NCBI GenBank assembly: GCA_022180565.1
Contig: BQML01000002.1
Coordinates: forward strand, 1 to 64,000
DNA: 64,000 bases
Direction: 5' to 3'
From: Bacteroidia bacterium
Lineage (GTDB): Bacteria > Bacteroidota > Ignavibacteria > UBA10030
Positions 7,338-31,649 of this stretch are shown in pieces. Under the pieces are notes generated by a model. That model was not told the origin of the DNA. It worked only from the letters and a program-made list of their open reading frames with translations, and made no database searches. Position 1 is the stretch's first letter. Each line of letters starts with the position of its first letter. The translations under genes were made by a program, and so were the position numbers.

Positions 7338-7841
7338 ATGGAACTCACCACGATCGTCTTTTATGTTTTTGCGGCGATCACTCTGATTGCCGGCGCGATC
7401 GTCGTTTTTTCACGGAGCATCGTGTACTCGGCATTTGCACTCTTGTTCGCCTTCTTCGGCGTTGCCGGATTGTACGTTCTCCTCATGGCCGACTTCCTGG
7501 CGGTCACGCAGTTGATGATCTATGTCGGGGCAATCCTTGTTCTCCTGATCTTTGGCGTCATGCTCACCACACGGGTGATCGATGTGCAAATGCGTACCGG
7601 GACGATTCACGTCCTGCCGGCCTTGCTCATTGTCGCCGCTCTCGCGGGTGTCCTCGTGCATGTCCTGGTCTCAACGGACTGGAAAGTCCTTCCGGAGCTC
7701 TTTACCCCCGAGGAGACGGCCCCCCAGATCGGTACGGCGTTGCTGACGACGTATGTCCTCCCGTTCGAAGTGGCATCGGTCATCCTCCTCGTTGCCTTAA
7801 TCGGTGCCGCGATGATTGCTCGCCGGGAGAGAAAGGTCTGA
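7338..7841 (+). CDS. nuoJ: NADH-quinone oxidoreductase subunit J
   Basis: The 167-residue protein has five predicted membrane helices. The conserved YSAFALLFAFFGVAGLYVLLMADFLAVTQLMIYVGAILVLLIFGVMLT region of NuoJ is clear (the third helix contains the Y-V-G-A-I-L-V-L-L-I-F motif near the pi-bulge). It starts one base after the nuoI stop and abuts nuoK, consistent with coupled translation of the proton-pumping module. Confidence 0.94.
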   Translation: MELTTIVFYVFAAITLIAGAIVVFSRSIVYSAFALLFAFFGVAGLYVLLMADFLAVTQLMIYVGAILVLLIFGVMLTTRVIDVQMRTGTIHVLPALLIVAALAGVLVHVLVSTDWKVLPELFTPEETAPQIGTALLTTYVLPFEVASVILLVALIGAAMIARRERKV

Positions 7842-8174
7842 ATGCCCCCTATGAACGACTGGCTGACACAACCCGGTCTGACTCATTTTCTCGTCGTCAG
7901 CGGCATCCTCTTTTCGCTGGGAGTCTTTGCGATCATCACCCGTCGCAACGCCGTCATGGTTCTCATGGGCATCGAACTCATTCTGAACGCGGCCAACATC
8001 AATTTTGTGGCGTTCTCCAGGTTCACGACGGGAACCTTCGACGGGCAGGTGATCGCCGTTTTTGTGATCATCCTGGCGGCCGCCGAGGCGGCGATCGCCC
8101 TTGCTATTGTGCTCAACATCTACCAGATGTTCAACACGGTGAACGTGGACGAGATCAATCAATTGCGCGATTGA
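7842..8174 (+). CDS. nuoK: NADH-quinone oxidoreductase subunit K
   Basis: The 110-residue, three-helix subunit keeps the family core: FLVVSGILFSLGVFAIITRRNAVMVLMGIELILNAANINFVAFSR with the essential Glu in GIELILNAANINFV, and a second Glu in AAAEAAIALAIVL in helix 3. It starts directly after the nuoJ stop; an alternative ATG nine bases later would remove only three residues. Confidence 0.94.
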   Translation: MPPMNDWLTQPGLTHFLVVSGILFSLGVFAIITRRNAVMVLMGIELILNAANINFVAFSRFTTGTFDGQVIAVFVIILAAAEAAIALAIVLNIYQMFNTVNVDEINQLRD

Positions 8175-8189
8175 CGGATATCCGACCGT

Positions 8190-10451
8190 ATGGCACCTGA
8201 AACGATCATTCTGCTTTCGACCGCCGTTCTGTTTATCCCTCTGCTGAGCTTTGTCGTCCTCATTTTCTTCGGCAATCGGATGCCCAAACAGGGGGATTGG
8301 TTCGGGACGGCCATGGTGTTCGGTGGTCTCGTGCTCGCGGGCCTCATCCTCTCCGCAAAGCTCTCTCGATACCATGATGACGTTCTGCAGACCCTGTTCA
8401 CCTGGGTGGACTTCGGCACGGTCGCCGGCATAGGCCCGCTCAAAATCGAGCTGGGCATCATGGTGGATAACCTCTCTGCAATCATGATGGTTGCCGTGAT
8501 GATCGTGAGCTCGTTCGTCCACTTGTTCTCGATCGGCTACATGCATGGAGATGTCCGATACGGCCGCTATTTCGCCTATCTCGGGCTCTTCACGTTCTCG
8601 ATGTTGGGAATTGTGCTGACGAACAATTTCTGGATGATGTACGTGTTCTGGGAACTCGTCGGACTCAGCTCCTATCTGTTGATCGGCCACTGGTTCGAAA
8701 AGAAATCCGCGTCGGACGCCGCCAAGAAGGCATTCATTGTGAACAGGATCGGCGACATCGGCATGTTCACCGGAATCATGATCCTGTTTGCCACGTTTCA
8801 TTCGTTCAACTTCGACGTCATTTTCAGCTCCATGCAAAGCGGCACGATTCCGTTGGGCAGTGAAGCGTGGTTGACGGCGGCGGGGATTCTGATCTTCGCC
8901 GGTGCAGTCGGCAAATCGGCGCAGTTTCCCCTGCATGTCTGGCTCCCCGACGCGATGGAGGGCCCCACACCCGTCAGCGCCTTAATTCACGCGGCCACGA
9001 TGGTCGCCGCCGGCGTGTACCTTGTCGCGCGGACATTCGCCATGATGACGGCGGACGCCCTCGCGGTGATCGCGACGATCGGCGCCATCACGTCGTTCAT
9101 TGCGGCAACGATCGCGATTGCTCAGAACGACATCAAGAAAGTCCTTGCCTACTCCACGGTGAGTCAGCTTGGCTATATGGTCATGGCGTTGGGCGTGGGA
9201 GCCTACACGGCCGGATTCTTTCATCTGATCACCCACGCCATGTTCAAGGCCGGCCTGTTCCTTGGTTCCGGCTCGGTGATTCACGCAATGCATCATGCAC
9301 TGCATGCGAAGCATGACCATGAGACCGATCCCCAGGACATCCGGAACATGGGCGGTCTCGGCAAAAAGATGCCCGTGACGTTCTGGACCTTCATTGTCTA
9401 CACGCTCGCGATATCGGGAGTGCCGCTTACATCCGGATTCCTGAGTAAGGACGAAATACTTGCGGGCACACTTGTATTCGGCGAGCTCACGGGGAATGTC
9501 CTGATCCCGATCGTGGGATTTTTCGTTGCCGGCCTTACCGCGTTGTACATGTTCCGTCTGGTGATTCTGGTGTTCCTCGGCGAGCACAAGGACCCGGCGC
9601 GGCTTGCGGACATTCATGAATCTCCGGCCACCATGACCGTTCCTCTCGTCGTTTTTGCCGTTCTGTCGTTCTTTGCATTCTACAGCCTGAATCCGTTTGG
9701 GGCCGCGGACGGATGGTTCTACGATGCGATCGTCCGCCCCGTCTCAGTCGTCCCCGCGTCGATGGCGGCAGCCGGGTCCGCAGAGTTTGAAGCAACCTTG
9801 CACCATGTCCACTCCAACGCAATGATTCTCTCGCTGACGGTAGCAGGTCTGGGCATTCTGCTGGCGTTTATGACGTACAAGTGGCGCAAGATCAGCGCTG
9901 ATGCCGTCGCAGGAGCGCTCCGCCCCATCCACTCGTTTTTGCTGAACAAGTGGTATTTTGACGAGGCCTACGATGCAACCGTGGTCAAAGGAACCCTCCT
10001 CTTGACGCGCGCTTTTCGCTGGGTCGACACCATAATCATTGATGGGTTGGTAAACGGGACCGCGAGTTGGACCCGTGCGGTCACATTGGGTACGAAGCGG
10101 AACTGGGAGGAGGGGAACCTCGCCGCTGTCTTCTATCTCATGGTAAGCGGAGCTGTGTCCGTGTACGCGGCATGGCTGACCGGCACGGCAATCTGGCCGG
10201 AGCAGGCGACGGCTCTGCAGGCAGTGTGGTACGGGATTCTCAGCCTTGGTGTAGGAGGACTGACGTTCTTCCTGTTTTATGTCGGCGTAGGGGGTTTCGA
10301 CAACAGGATCGTCGATGGCGTTGTCAATCTGGTCGCGTACCTGGCCGGATTTTTCGGCCTCCTGACGCGCAGGATTCAGACGGGGAAAGTGCAGACCTAT
10401 CTGGCGTTTGTCTTGCTGGGCGTCATGGTTTTCTTCTTGTGGTTCACCTGA
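8190..10451 (+). CDS. nuoL: NADH-quinone oxidoreductase subunit L
   Basis: The 753-residue antiporter-like subunit pumps protons and carries the long lateral helix at its C-terminus. The N-terminal oxidoreductase domain and central proton_antipo domain are seen in NNFWMMYVFWELVGLSSYLLIG, SAQFPLHVWLPDAMEGPTPVSALIHAATMVAAGVYLVAR and KKVLAYSTVSQLGYM. A histidine-rich loop (HAMHHALHAKHDHETD) is normal for the family. The residues after about 590 form the lateral helix, and two or three final membrane helices anchor it. The length is toward the long end of the family. Confidence 0.95.
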   Translation: MAPETIILLSTAVLFIPLLSFVVLIFFGNRMPKQGDWFGTAMVFGGLVLAGLILSAKLSRYHDDVLQTLFTWVDFGTVAGIGPLKIELGIMVDNLSAIMMVAVMIVSSFVHLFSIGYMHGDVRYGRYFAYLGLFTFSMLGIVLTNNFWMMYVFWELVGLSSYLLIGHWFEKKSASDAAKKAFIVNRIGDIGMFTGIMILFATFHSFNFDVIFSSMQSGTIPLGSEAWLTAAGILIFAGAVGKSAQFPLHVWLPDAMEGPTPVSALIHAATMVAAGVYLVARTFAMMTADALAVIATIGAITSFIAATIAIAQNDIKKVLAYSTVSQLGYMVMALGVGAYTAGFFHLITHAMFKAGLFLGSGSVIHAMHHALHAKHDHETDPQDIRNMGGLGKKMPVTFWTFIVYTLAISGVPLTSGFLSKDEILAGTLVFGELTGNVLIPIVGFFVAGLTALYMFRLVILVFLGEHKDPARLADIHESPATMTVPLVVFAVLSFFAFYSLNPFGAADGWFYDAIVRPVSVVPASMAAAGSAEFEATLHHVHSNAMILSLTVAGLGILLAFMTYKWRKISADAVAGALRPIHSFLLNKWYFDEAYDATVVKGTLLLTRAFRWVDTIIIDGLVNGTASWTRAVTLGTKRNWEEGNLAAVFYLMVSGAVSVYAAWLTGTAIWPEQATALQAVWYGILSLGVGGLTFFLFYVGVGGFDNRIVDGVVNLVAYLAGFFGLLTRRIQTGKVQTYLAFVLLGVMVFFLWFT

Positions 10452-10476
10452 TGTGAGTTAGCGGAGGAACGACCTC

Positions 10477-12072
10477 ATGGAATTCATTGGTATTGGTATT
10501 CTCACTTGGATAACCTTTCTGCCGATTATCGGCATGGTGGCCGTTCTGACGGTTCCGAAAGGAAAGGAGGGTCCCTTAAAATGGGTCCCTGCGGGCGTGA
10601 CGTTCCTCCAAGTCGTCCTCGCGATCGTCATATATTTTTCTTTTAACCAGGGAATGGCGGGCATCAACTCTCTCGAAGGGATGCAGTTCGTCGAAAAGGC
10701 CACGTGGATCGATGTGCCCGCGACTTCCTGGTTCGGACGAATCCAGATTGAGTATTTTCTGGGCGTAGACGGCCTGAGCGTGTCCATGGTTCTCCTGACG
10801 GCTCTGATCAGTTTCATTGCGGTTTTTGCTTCCTGGAACATCGAGAAGTCGCTGAAGGGCTACATGGCCATGCTTCTGCTTCTGGACACCGGGATGATGG
10901 GTGTCTTTGTGGCGTTGGACTTTTTCCTGTTCTACGTGTTTTGGGAGCTTATGCTTCTGCCGATGTATTTCCTCATCGGCATCTGGGGCGGTCCGCGGCG
11001 CGAATATGCGGCCATTAAGTTCTTCCTCTACACCCTCCTGGGTAGTGTGCTGATTCTGCTGGCCATGATCGCCCTGTATTTCAGTGTGACCGTCATGGAT
11101 CCGTTAACCGGAGAAAAGATCCATACCTTCAACATGCTGGCCATGATGAACCCGGCCAACTATGAACCGGGGAGCCTCCTGGCGGGGATCGGAACGTATT
11201 GGCGCTCCCTTGCCTATATTGCCTTGTTTATCGGATTTGCAATCAAGGTTCCGATCTTCCCGTTCCACACCTGGTTGCCGGATGCCCACGTTGAGGCCCC
11301 GACGGCGATCAGCGTGATCCTGGCGGGCGTGCTTTTAAAAATGGGAACCTATGGCCTCCTGAGAATCAGCTATCCGATGTTTCCTGATATCGCTCAGGCG
11401 TACGCCGTCCCGCTTGCGGTTGTGGCCTTCATCAATATTGTCTATGGCGCACTCTGTGCCATGGCACAGCAGGATTTCAAGAAGCTCATCGCCTACTCCA
11501 GCATCAGCCACATGGGAGTCGTTCTGCTGGGCATGGCCGCGTTGAACACTCAGGGAATGGTCGGTGCGGTGTTTCAGATGTTCAACCACGGCACCATCAC
11601 CGCAATGCTCTTCTTGATTGTCGGCGTCATTTACGACCGGGCGCACACGCGTGATCTGGACGCCTTCGGCGGACTCGCGATCACCATGCCGAAGTACACG
11701 GGGATCATGATGGTGGCGTTCTTTGCGGCGCTCGGCCTGCCCGGACTCAGCGGTTTTGTCTCTGAAGCCTTCTCGTTCCTGGGTGCTTTCCAGACCCACC
11801 GCATCATTACGATCGCATCGACGTTGGGAATTGTGCTGACCGCCGCTTATATGTTGTGGACGATTCAACGGGTGTTTCTCGGAAAACCGAACGAGAGGTG
11901 GGCGGGACTCCCCGATATTAACGGCCGCGAGATGTTTACCCTCGTGCCGTTAGGTGTCATCGTGCTGGCCCTGGGAGTGTACCCGTCGCTCCTCCTGGAT
12001 CTTTTGACAACTTCCCTGAACCACCTGGTGAATGTCGTTGCGACAGGCGCATCCATGGCTATGGTGCCCTAA
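10477..12072 (+). CDS. nuoM: NADH-quinone oxidoreductase subunit M
   Basis: The 531-residue antiporter-like subunit has a strong GGAGG ribosome site ten bases ahead of its ATG. Typical motifs include LDFFLFYVFWELMLLPMYFLIGIWGG with the essential Glu, KVPIFPFHTWLPDAHVEAPTAISVILAGVLLKMGTYGLLR with the conserved Lys, and DFKKLIAYSSISHMG. It is complete and lies between nuoL and nuoN as expected. Confidence 0.95.
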   Translation: MEFIGIGILTWITFLPIIGMVAVLTVPKGKEGPLKWVPAGVTFLQVVLAIVIYFSFNQGMAGINSLEGMQFVEKATWIDVPATSWFGRIQIEYFLGVDGLSVSMVLLTALISFIAVFASWNIEKSLKGYMAMLLLLDTGMMGVFVALDFFLFYVFWELMLLPMYFLIGIWGGPRREYAAIKFFLYTLLGSVLILLAMIALYFSVTVMDPLTGEKIHTFNMLAMMNPANYEPGSLLAGIGTYWRSLAYIALFIGFAIKVPIFPFHTWLPDAHVEAPTAISVILAGVLLKMGTYGLLRISYPMFPDIAQAYAVPLAVVAFINIVYGALCAMAQQDFKKLIAYSSISHMGVVLLGMAALNTQGMVGAVFQMFNHGTITAMLFLIVGVIYDRAHTRDLDAFGGLAITMPKYTGIMMVAFFAALGLPGLSGFVSEAFSFLGAFQTHRIITIASTLGIVLTAAYMLWTIQRVFLGKPNERWAGLPDINGREMFTLVPLGVIVLALGVYPSLLLDLLTTSLNHLVNVVATGASMAMVP

Positions 12073-30044: not shown

Positions 30045-31649
30045 CTACTTGGGTTTGAATTCGCTGATGATTCTTTCAATCTCTGATTCCGAAATTCCCG
30101 TGCCGAATTGTTTCGAGTCCTTTCCTTCCGCTTTCGGCCTGACCGGTTCGGATGTTGCTTTCTGCCACGCATTGCCGGCACGGGCCCGGATGCGTTCATC
30201 GATGACGTCCATCCAGGAACGCTGAGGAGGTGTTGGTGTTCGGCGGACATTGGTTTGTTGGGTTTCTTCGGCCGCAGCGGTATGGAGGGGCGGATTGATC
30301 GGGCGGGTTTCAAATGCCAGGCGCTTCACATTGATCAAATGTCGCGCCGAAACATTGTCCGAGATGATGGACCCGCCAAACGTGCCGGGTCCGAGCGTCA
30401 TGGACGGCGTGAGCTCGTTCGTGTAGCCCACAGCGCCAAGGGCGGCCTGAGTGTTCACCAGGACTCGGAACGCCGGCTTCTCAAGGCCGAATTTCAAAAT
30501 GACCTCGGAATCCGACGAGTGAATCACCATCGAGTGGCCGATGCCTCCGAAATTCAGCATTTCGATGCACCGTTCACAGCCCTTCTGCCATCCGTTGGCC
30601 GTCAAGAACGAGAGCACGGGGGAGAGCTTTTCGCGGGAGAGCGGGTACTCCCGGCCGATTCCGGAGATTTCGGCGATCAGGCAAGTCGTCTCACCCGAGA
30701 CGTCGAATCCCGCCTTCCGCGCGATGAACTGTGGCGGTTTGCCGACGATATCCGGATTGATCGCGCCGCGCTGATCGAACATCGTGCGGCTGAGTCGTTC
30801 ACGCTCCTCGGGTGACACAAAATAGGCCCCTTGTTTCCTGAATTCCTTGATAACTGCATCACGGATCGGCTCATCGACAATGACGCCGGATTCCGTCGAG
30901 CAGAGCACGCCCCAATCGAACATCTTGCCTGAAATGATATCCGCCACAGCCTTGCGGATGTTTGCCGTGCGCTCGATGAAGGCGGGAACATTGCCCGAGC
31001 CCACTCCGTAGGCGGGCTTTCCGGAGCTGTAGGCCGCCTTGACCATCGGATTGGAGCCCGTGGCGAGGATGATCGAGGTAAGCCTATTGCGCATCAGCTC
31101 GTTTGTGCCCTCGATGTGGCTTGCCGACATGCAGTTGATCAATCCCGCCGGCGCCCCGGCGGCTTCGGCCGCCTCGGCAACAACGCGTGCAGCCTCCAGA
31201 GTGCATTTGACCGCCCGCGGGTGGGGACTTGCCACAAAGCCGTTTCTGCCTTTGACAGAAATGAGAGCCTTGAACATGACCGTGGAGGTGGGATTGGTCG
31301 AAGGGATCAACGCGGCGACAACGCCCATCGGTTCTGCAATCTCAATGATGCGCTTTTCCTTGTCCTCAAAGATCACGCCAACGGTCTTAAGGTCTTTGAT
31401 GGATTCCCAGACTCTACGCGTGGCGAACTCGTTCTTCTTCTTCTTGTCCGCAGGCTTACCGAACCCGGTTTCCTCGTGAGCCAGCTTCCCCAGCCGTTCC
31501 GCCGCCGCAAACCCCGCATCGGCCATGGCCTTCACGATTCTGTCGACCTGTTCCTGACTGAATGCGCGGAACGCGCGCTGGGCCTCCTTTGCTTTCGCGA
31601 GGAGCGATCGGGCTTCCTGGACAGAGAGAAGATCGGTGTCGAGGGACAT
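30045..31649 (-). CDS. Acylating aldehyde dehydrogenase with probable encapsulation peptide
   Basis: The 534-residue enzyme belongs to the CoA-acylating aldehyde dehydrogenases (EutE/PduP/AdhE N-domain type), which convert an aldehyde and CoA to acyl-CoA with NAD. The catalytic Cys is Cys250 in GVLCSTESGVIV; IPSTNPTSTVMFKALI and TLGPGTFGGSIISDN are typical of the class. The catalytic domain ends near residue 455. A Pro/Thr/Gln-rich linker follows, then a helix near 478-500 and a final short amphipathic helix, SESEIERIISEFKPK (520-534), resembling encapsulation peptides that direct enzymes into bacterial microcompartments. No shell-protein gene is present in the window. It is expressed from its own predicted promoter. 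Confidence 0.88.
   Translation of the reverse strand: MSLDTDLLSVQEARSLLAKAKEAQRAFRAFSQEQVDRIVKAMADAGFAAAERLGKLAHEETGFGKPADKKKKNEFATRRVWESIKDLKTVGVIFEDKEKRIIEIAEPMGVVAALIPSTNPTSTVMFKALISVKGRNGFVASPHPRAVKCTLEAARVVAEAAEAAGAPAGLINCMSASHIEGTNELMRNRLTSIILATGSNPMVKAAYSSGKPAYGVGSGNVPAFIERTANIRKAVADIISGKMFDWGVLCSTESGVIVDEPIRDAVIKEFRKQGAYFVSPEERERLSRTMFDQRGAINPDIVGKPPQFIARKAGFDVSGETTCLIAEISGIGREYPLSREKLSPVLSFLTANGWQKGCERCIEMLNFGGIGHSMVIHSSDSEVILKFGLEKPAFRVLVNTQAALGAVGYTNELTPSMTLGPGTFGGSIISDNVSARHLINVKRLAFETRPINPPLHTAAAEETQQTNVRRTPTPPQRSWMDVIDERIRARAGNAWQKATSEPVRPKAEGKDSKQFGTGISESEIERIISEFKPK

Follow-up and report, generated by a model that had tools for sequence, protein, structure and literature searches.

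The window is the whole stretch of DNA that was analysed, 64,000 nucleotides in length, and corresponds to C2:1-64000 of its genome; genomes, contigs, loci, and genera are denoted by G, C, L, and g numbers, G000 being the genome of the window. As shown in Table 1, a gene for a CoA-acylating aldehyde dehydrogenase (AldDH) lies on the reverse strand. The sequence-only reading had already proposed an acylating aldehyde dehydrogenase at this place, and the ORF, a Pfam Aldedh match (E = 1.2e-25), the NCBIfam model TIGR02518, and the best solved relatives (3k9d and 5j78) all agree with it. TIGR02518 is the best NCBIfam model, with 610.4 bits against a curated equivalog cut-off of 620.1; AldDH is a near relative of the acetylating acetaldehyde dehydrogenases of TIGR02518 that falls below the membership cut-off. 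Cys250, which I take to be the catalytic cysteine of the ALDH family, is invariant in the 28 sequences aligned. The immediate neighbours encode an MPG-type DNA glycosylase, a pseudouridine synthase, and UvrA, none of which is compartment-related.

Table 1. Features of the AldDH gene (window positions), other genes of the same genome, and the clustered genes of the Chloroflexi contig L048
Feature	Position	Strand	Basis or remark
AldDH, CoA-acylating aldehyde dehydrogenase, 534 aa	30045..31649	-	ORF, Pfam, NCBIfam, solved relatives
AldDH catalytic part, residues 1-449	30303..31649	-	alignment
AldDH variable linker 1, residues 450-477	30219..30302	-	predicted disordered
AldDH second conserved segment SWMDVIDERIRARA, residues 478-491	30177..30218	-	predicted helix
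AldDH variable linker 2, residues 492-514	30108..30176	-	predicted disordered
AldDH C-terminal encapsulation-peptide-like tail, residues 515-534	30048..30107	-	helix 521-530
BMC-H pair	C7:13349-14248	-
BMC-P pair	C2:68049-68594	+
BMC-P3	C2:370211-370480	-
Extended RpiB	G000:C32:41373-42047 (L315:5373-6047)		TIGR01120, 147 bits
Class II aldolase with EP-like C-terminal tail	G000:C4:41773-42525
L048 RpiB	7620-8063		59% identical
L048 DeoC	8703-9524		57% identical; extension aligns from residue 1
L048 BMC-P	9662-9925
L048 AldDH	10001-11365		54% identical
L048 BMC-H	11570-11845		85% identical

The C-terminal tail of AldDH

The C-terminal end of the ORF reads ...GTGISESEIERIISEFKPK. The earlier description of a linker followed by a terminal amphipathic helix holds: an AlphaFold model built on 28 sequences (mean pLDDT 80) predicts helices at residues 479-491 and 521-530 and is of low confidence over residues 452-477 and 492-515, and the pattern of the tail is conserved in 35 homologues. 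The hydrophobic positions are I519 (35 of 35), I524 (34 of 35), I527 (35 of 35), I528 (34 of 35), and F531 (35 of 35), and polar residues occupy the intervening helix positions, save at one position in three homologues. The consensus is G[TS]G[IL][ST]E[ED][ED][VI][DE][RK]I[IM][RK]EF. Alignment A1 took in 27 of the 38 homologous loci; eight incomplete loci (L029, L034, and L042-L047) were left out, as were L015, L027, and L040, which are complete but similar to loci that were kept. The mean conservation, measured as the mean sum of squared residue frequencies, was 0.78 for the core, 0.76 for the segment 478-491, 0.49 for the tail, and 0.23-0.30 for the linkers. Compared with shuffled sequences, the hydrophobic moment of the tail is unremarkable taken alone (P = 0.14); P values of 0.05 or below were obtained for just 2 of 23 homologous tails and, in the same shuffle test, for 7 of 75 control windows of the core. 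The hydrophobic moment was dropped as proof of the tail because the single-sequence value is non-significant. The tail is taken as real because its hydrophobic/polar pattern is conserved, not because of its amphipathicity.

The sequence-only reading overlooked the second conserved segment of the extension. Its motif, SWxxEIxERIR, is present in 34 of the 35 homologues (G036 is without it) and is missing from the distant homologues. This segment is perhaps a second binding site for the shell or for partner enzymes. The distant homologues, from Anaerolineales, Spirochaetes, Desulfosarcina, and Chloroflexi, are 52-55% identical to AldDH, and their C-terminal extension is shorter, with a similar helix-like stretch at its end.

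Encapsulation peptides (EPs) are described in passages of two papers as terminal amphipathic helices of about 15-20 residues (PMC8217296, PMC12339742), and the BMC catalogue gives the C-terminal kind to 'type I' AldDhs in the part of its text consulted (PMC8217296). The AldDH tail has a predicted terminal helix with a conserved hydrophobic pattern, a poorly conserved and predicted disordered linker before it, and shell genes in the same genome. It is very probably a genuine targeting signal for a compartment with a protein shell, to which it would deliver AldDH as cargo. The tail had been compared with the EPs of PduP/EutE-type enzymes; it is indeed EP-like, but not of the PduP kind, which is N-terminal.

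Dispersed shell genes and their co-occurrence with AldDH

It had been stated that the window contains no shell gene, and this is true for the shell families searched. In the genome as a whole, which spans 3.0 Mb in 111 contigs and has a completeness rating of 100%, two BMC-H and three BMC-P genes were found. Given the extent of the window on C2, the BMC-P pair, which comprises the nearest shell genes, lies 4 kb outside the window; BMC-P3 is 302 kb away from the pair. AldDH is located at 30 kb and DeoC at 121 kb of C2, and RpiB is on C32. Neither BMC-T nor PduL was found in this genome; many relatives carry a BMC-T. The earlier suggestion that the tail marks a distant compartment locus is supported, with one correction: the shell genes of the same genome, the tail kept in relatives, and the distant homologues beside BMC-H genes all point to a distant compartment, but there is no single locus, the shell genes being at three places and the enzyme genes elsewhere. 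A genome free of shell genes, with homologues free of the tail, had been named as counter-evidence; both shell genes and tails are present.

The dispersal was also seen in G033, a near-complete genome of about 10 contigs. Its AldDH (149 kb) and BMC-P pair (162 kb) are on C6, its BMC-H pair (16 kb), BMC-T (394 kb), and RpiB (1301 kb) on C7, its DeoC (208 kb) and BMC-P3 (225 kb) on C4, and its class II aldolase on C3 (129 kb), where the match is in two pieces with a stop. Since the genes are scattered in this genome too, the dispersal in the window's genome is not produced by its fragmented assembly.

The second BMC-H (G000:C7:13349-13900, or L006:9349-9900) is extended at its C-terminus by a region that matches Rho_N weakly (Pfam E = 0.0086, short of the cut-off). 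The extension was present in all 30 loci checked. From its sequence, it is possibly a nucleic-acid-binding domain on a shell hexamer.

Each family was searched in the same 61 genomes (the window's own and 60 relatives), of which 37 have scattered shell genes, 18 have no shell genes, and 6 have a clustered locus only. The shell set is incomplete in two of the 37, G012 having BMC-P without BMC-H and G051 a BMC-H fragment only. An AldDH of 62-100% identity was found in 36 of the 37 scattered-type genomes, in none of the 18 shell-less genomes, and in none of the 6 clustered-only genomes (Fisher P = 4e-16 for AldDH versus scattered shell genes, ignoring kinship). The single scattered-type genome without it is G014, which is 81% complete. 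Weaker paralogues (42-43%) in G033, G052, and G058 match residues 15-445 only. Within the genera g8 and g15, the shell and AldDH genes occur or are missing jointly; a genome has both or neither. For instance, G008 and G030 of g8 have the shell genes, AldDH, an extended DeoC, and an extended RpiB, and G020, G024, G026, and G028 of the same genus lack the shell genes and all three enzymes. PduL was found in 6 of the 61 genomes, namely five clustered-only genomes and G036. The latter has both arrangements and is the sole PduL genome among the 37; its PduL lies in its separate clustered locus.

Enzymes with targeting-like extensions and a clustered counterpart

A DeoC with about 60 extra N-terminal residues was found in 34 of the 37 scattered-type genomes and in none of the 24 others, some of which have no close DeoC. 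The copy of the window's genome matches TIGR00126 with 290 bits. The extension consists of a helix-like stretch (MDKQTILRLIEEVLRE in this copy) followed by a cysteine motif, C-x4-C-x4-C-x2-H, which lies between the targeting-like helix and the DeoC core in 32 of the 34 (DeoC N-terminus of L185:8946-9806). No trustworthy Pfam match was obtained for the motif region, which from its residues could possibly be a metal site. Three scattered-type genomes, G012, G014, and G018, yielded no extended DeoC. In the shell-less members of g8, the DeoC core is kept in G024, G026, and G028, and the helix and the cysteine motif are absent from these and from G020. Thirty loci of other PF01791 aldolases, which are not DeoC, were kept out of use.

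Recognised by the start point of the alignment, a second RpiB with an N-terminal module of about 70 residues was found in 33 of the 37 scattered-type genomes and in none of the 24 others; it was not found in G001, G017, G019, and G051, which are 69-91% complete. In all 33 extended copies, an Asp occupies the position of the catalytic-loop Cys, which is presumably the catalytic residue. In the plain copies, the same position is Cys in 46 and unreadable in 5. Because of this replacement, the activity or substrate of the extended RpiB may differ. A class II aldolase has an EP-like C-terminal tail, which, judged by eye and excluding the clustered copy of G036, is present in 25 of the 37 scattered-type genomes; among nine shell-less genomes from which a homologue was fetched, the tail was found in G057 only. 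Pta is present in the window's genome. It was considered as an encapsulated phosphotransacylase and rejected, as no Pta frame is extended.

Shell genes and AldDH are missing from G057, yet it has kept the N-terminal helix of DeoC, without the cysteine motif, and the aldolase tail (L143 and L203). These are perhaps remnants of a lost compartment.

A phosphopentomutase gene (DeoB, 516 bits) lies immediately upstream of the BMC-P pair in the window's genome. Excluding two clustered loci, DeoB flanks the BMC-P pair at 8 of 11 scattered-type places (the window's genome, G006, G007, G008, G018, G019, G030, and G054) and is not beside it in G010, G038, and G048.

Some contigs of Chloroflexi, Spirochaetes, and Desulfosarcina have an AldDH homologue adjoining shell genes, and in L036, L038, L039, L040, L041, and L047 the distant homologue is 0.1-1.6 kb from a BMC-H gene. 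The contig L048 (VGOW01000021) of a Chloroflexi MAG has RpiB, extended DeoC, BMC-P, AldDH, and BMC-H within 4.3 kb. They correspond to the genes that lie scattered in the window's genome. The N-terminus of its RpiB is a plain EP-like stretch, and the loop residue is likewise Asp. No class II aldolase was found on this contig by tblastn.

A proposed dispersed compartment for deoxyribose-5-phosphate

It is quite likely that AldDH acts as the central acetaldehyde dehydrogenase in a chromosome-dispersed FRAG-type BMC that performs SPU chemistry, is fed by DeoC, and works without PduL. The C-terminal helix would serve as the EP that draws AldDH into a shell built from the two BMC-H and the three BMC-P proteins, and the extended DeoC, the second RpiB with its extra N-terminal module, and the EP-tailed class II aldolase, each encoded singly, would be further cargo of one shared organelle. 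In the direction of breakdown, DeoB would supply (deoxy)ribose-5-phosphate, deoxyribose-5-phosphate would yield acetaldehyde, and AldDH would convert the confined acetaldehyde to acetyl-CoA. Since no PduL was found, CoA might be recycled by the ordinary cytosolic Pta outside the shell or exchanged across it. Degradation of DNA sugars as the task of the compartment is suggested by the remaining labelled enzymes. Against this explanation stand the lack of PduL together with Pta frames of ordinary length, the lack of BMC-T in the window's genome, the exceptional G057, the scattered-type genomes in which no extended DeoC or no extended RpiB was found, the Asp of RpiB, the non-significant amphipathicity, and counts that are blind to kinship.

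The aldehyde may instead come mainly from the class II aldolase, acting on a fuculose/rhamnulose-phosphate-like substrate or 5-deoxyribulose-1-phosphate, so that AldDH would belong to a PVM-like chemistry in a dispersed shell. The EP-like tail of this aldolase and its distribution speak for such a source, and PVM and ACI compartments employ the same aldolase family, according to a passage of PMC8217296. However, no homologue with E < 1e-40 was found in the shell-bearing G008, G014, G030, G034, G039, and G051, and the tail is absent in G003, G016, G018, and G023, whereas the extended DeoC is near-universal; the clustered L048 also has DeoC and RpiB without this aldolase. DeoC being replaced as the main source is thus clearly unlikely.

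It is less probable still that the tail has a role outside a compartment, such as enzyme-enzyme condensation, with the shell genes serving other enzymes. EPs alone can drive condensation, as described in part of PMC12339742, and no shell gene adjoins AldDH in the window's genome, but AldDH and the scattered shell genes track each other across the 61 genomes, and homologues sit beside shell genes in three other groups of contigs. A chance or degenerate C-terminus without function could appeal to the hydrophobic moment; it is barely credible, being already contradicted by the conservation of a pattern that is repeated in 35 homologues and separated from the core by variable linkers.

How does the proposed DeoC-fed compartment compare with known ones? 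According to the main text of Sutter et al. 2021 (PMC8217296), FRAG BMCs count among the metabolosomes, and no signature enzyme is obvious for FRAG1-7; as described in passages of this paper, FRAG BMCs have shell genes, BMC-P included, in up to six places, Ignavibacteriae are among the hosts, and AldDh is near some FRAG shell genes. Melioribacter roseus has seven BMC-P genes over five loci, as stated in a part of Axen 2014 (PMC4207490). The window's genome resembles them in having shell genes at separate places without a main locus (one on C7 and two on C2, and likewise in G033) and, by gene count, a BMC-P triplet; it differs in that copies of DeoC and RpiB that bear targeting-like extensions go along with the shell genes. 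SPU loci combine a DeoC-type aldolase, an RpiB-type isomerase, AldDH, and shell proteins, with a proposed role in deoxyribose or DNA breakdown (PMC4207490 and PMC8217296, in part). DeoC-type (pfam01791) and RpiB-type (pfam02502) enzymes are found with a BMC here as well, linked to the shell by co-occurrence and extensions only. In contrast, the SPU genes form one locus, with PduL in all but Marinimicrobia in the set of Axen (PMC4207490, in part), whereas AldDH, DeoC, RpiB, and the shell genes are apart here and PduL was not found in the window's genome. The HO BMC of Haliangium has, in some genomes, an unlinked DeoC with an EP-like N-terminal extension, but unlike the present case it has a main locus (a passage of PMC8217296).

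The PVM-like clustered loci of genus g9 and G049 (L264 = G021:C24:160001-178000) belong to the same family or order and share BMC-P, BMC-H, and class II aldolase, but they form one cluster, have PduL in 5 of 6 genomes, and encode an AldDH of about 22% identity whose EP-like helix is N-terminal. A PVM-like reading, which came from the count of two BMC-H and three BMC-P, was demoted in view of the absent PduL, the patchy aldolase tails, and the near-universal extended DeoC. The ethanolamine-type loci L036, L039, L040, and L041 have an AldDH of 53-55% identity with a C-terminal EP-like tail beside BMC-H, but their extension is short, without the SWxxEI segment, and they carry apparent ethanolamine genes. 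The eut names are presumed from sequence features.

As far as the cited passages go, FRAG in Ignavibacteriae, SPU chemistry, and HO with an unlinked EP-bearing DeoC are already published (PMC8217296, PMC4207490). An assignment of DeoC and RpiB to a FRAG compartment was not found in print within the open-licence main texts searched. A bolder generalisation is rather doubtful: Ignavibacteria FRAG might be dispersed deoxynucleoside-sugar compartments with no internal phosphotransacylase, whose single genes would have nothing but their matching targeting extensions to unite them. Two aldolases would serve as entrances, DeoC and the EP-tailed class II aldolase, the latter using a 5-deoxypentulose phosphate, and maybe both would release acetaldehyde. 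An Asp-RpiB variant would belong to the set, and so would BMC-H2, whose conserved Rho_N-like C-terminal domain could serve as a tether for nucleic acid.

Sutter et al. 2021 express the hope that environmental correlation will reveal the function of FRAG (PMC8217296, in part). The EP-like extensions traced to unlinked enzymes give a concrete substrate candidate, deoxyribose-5-phosphate, for Ignavibacterial FRAG. An organelle gene set can persist jointly across an order without gene clustering, and a genome-wide search for EPs, beyond the surroundings of shell genes, is suggested as a route to the cargo of other orphan compartments.
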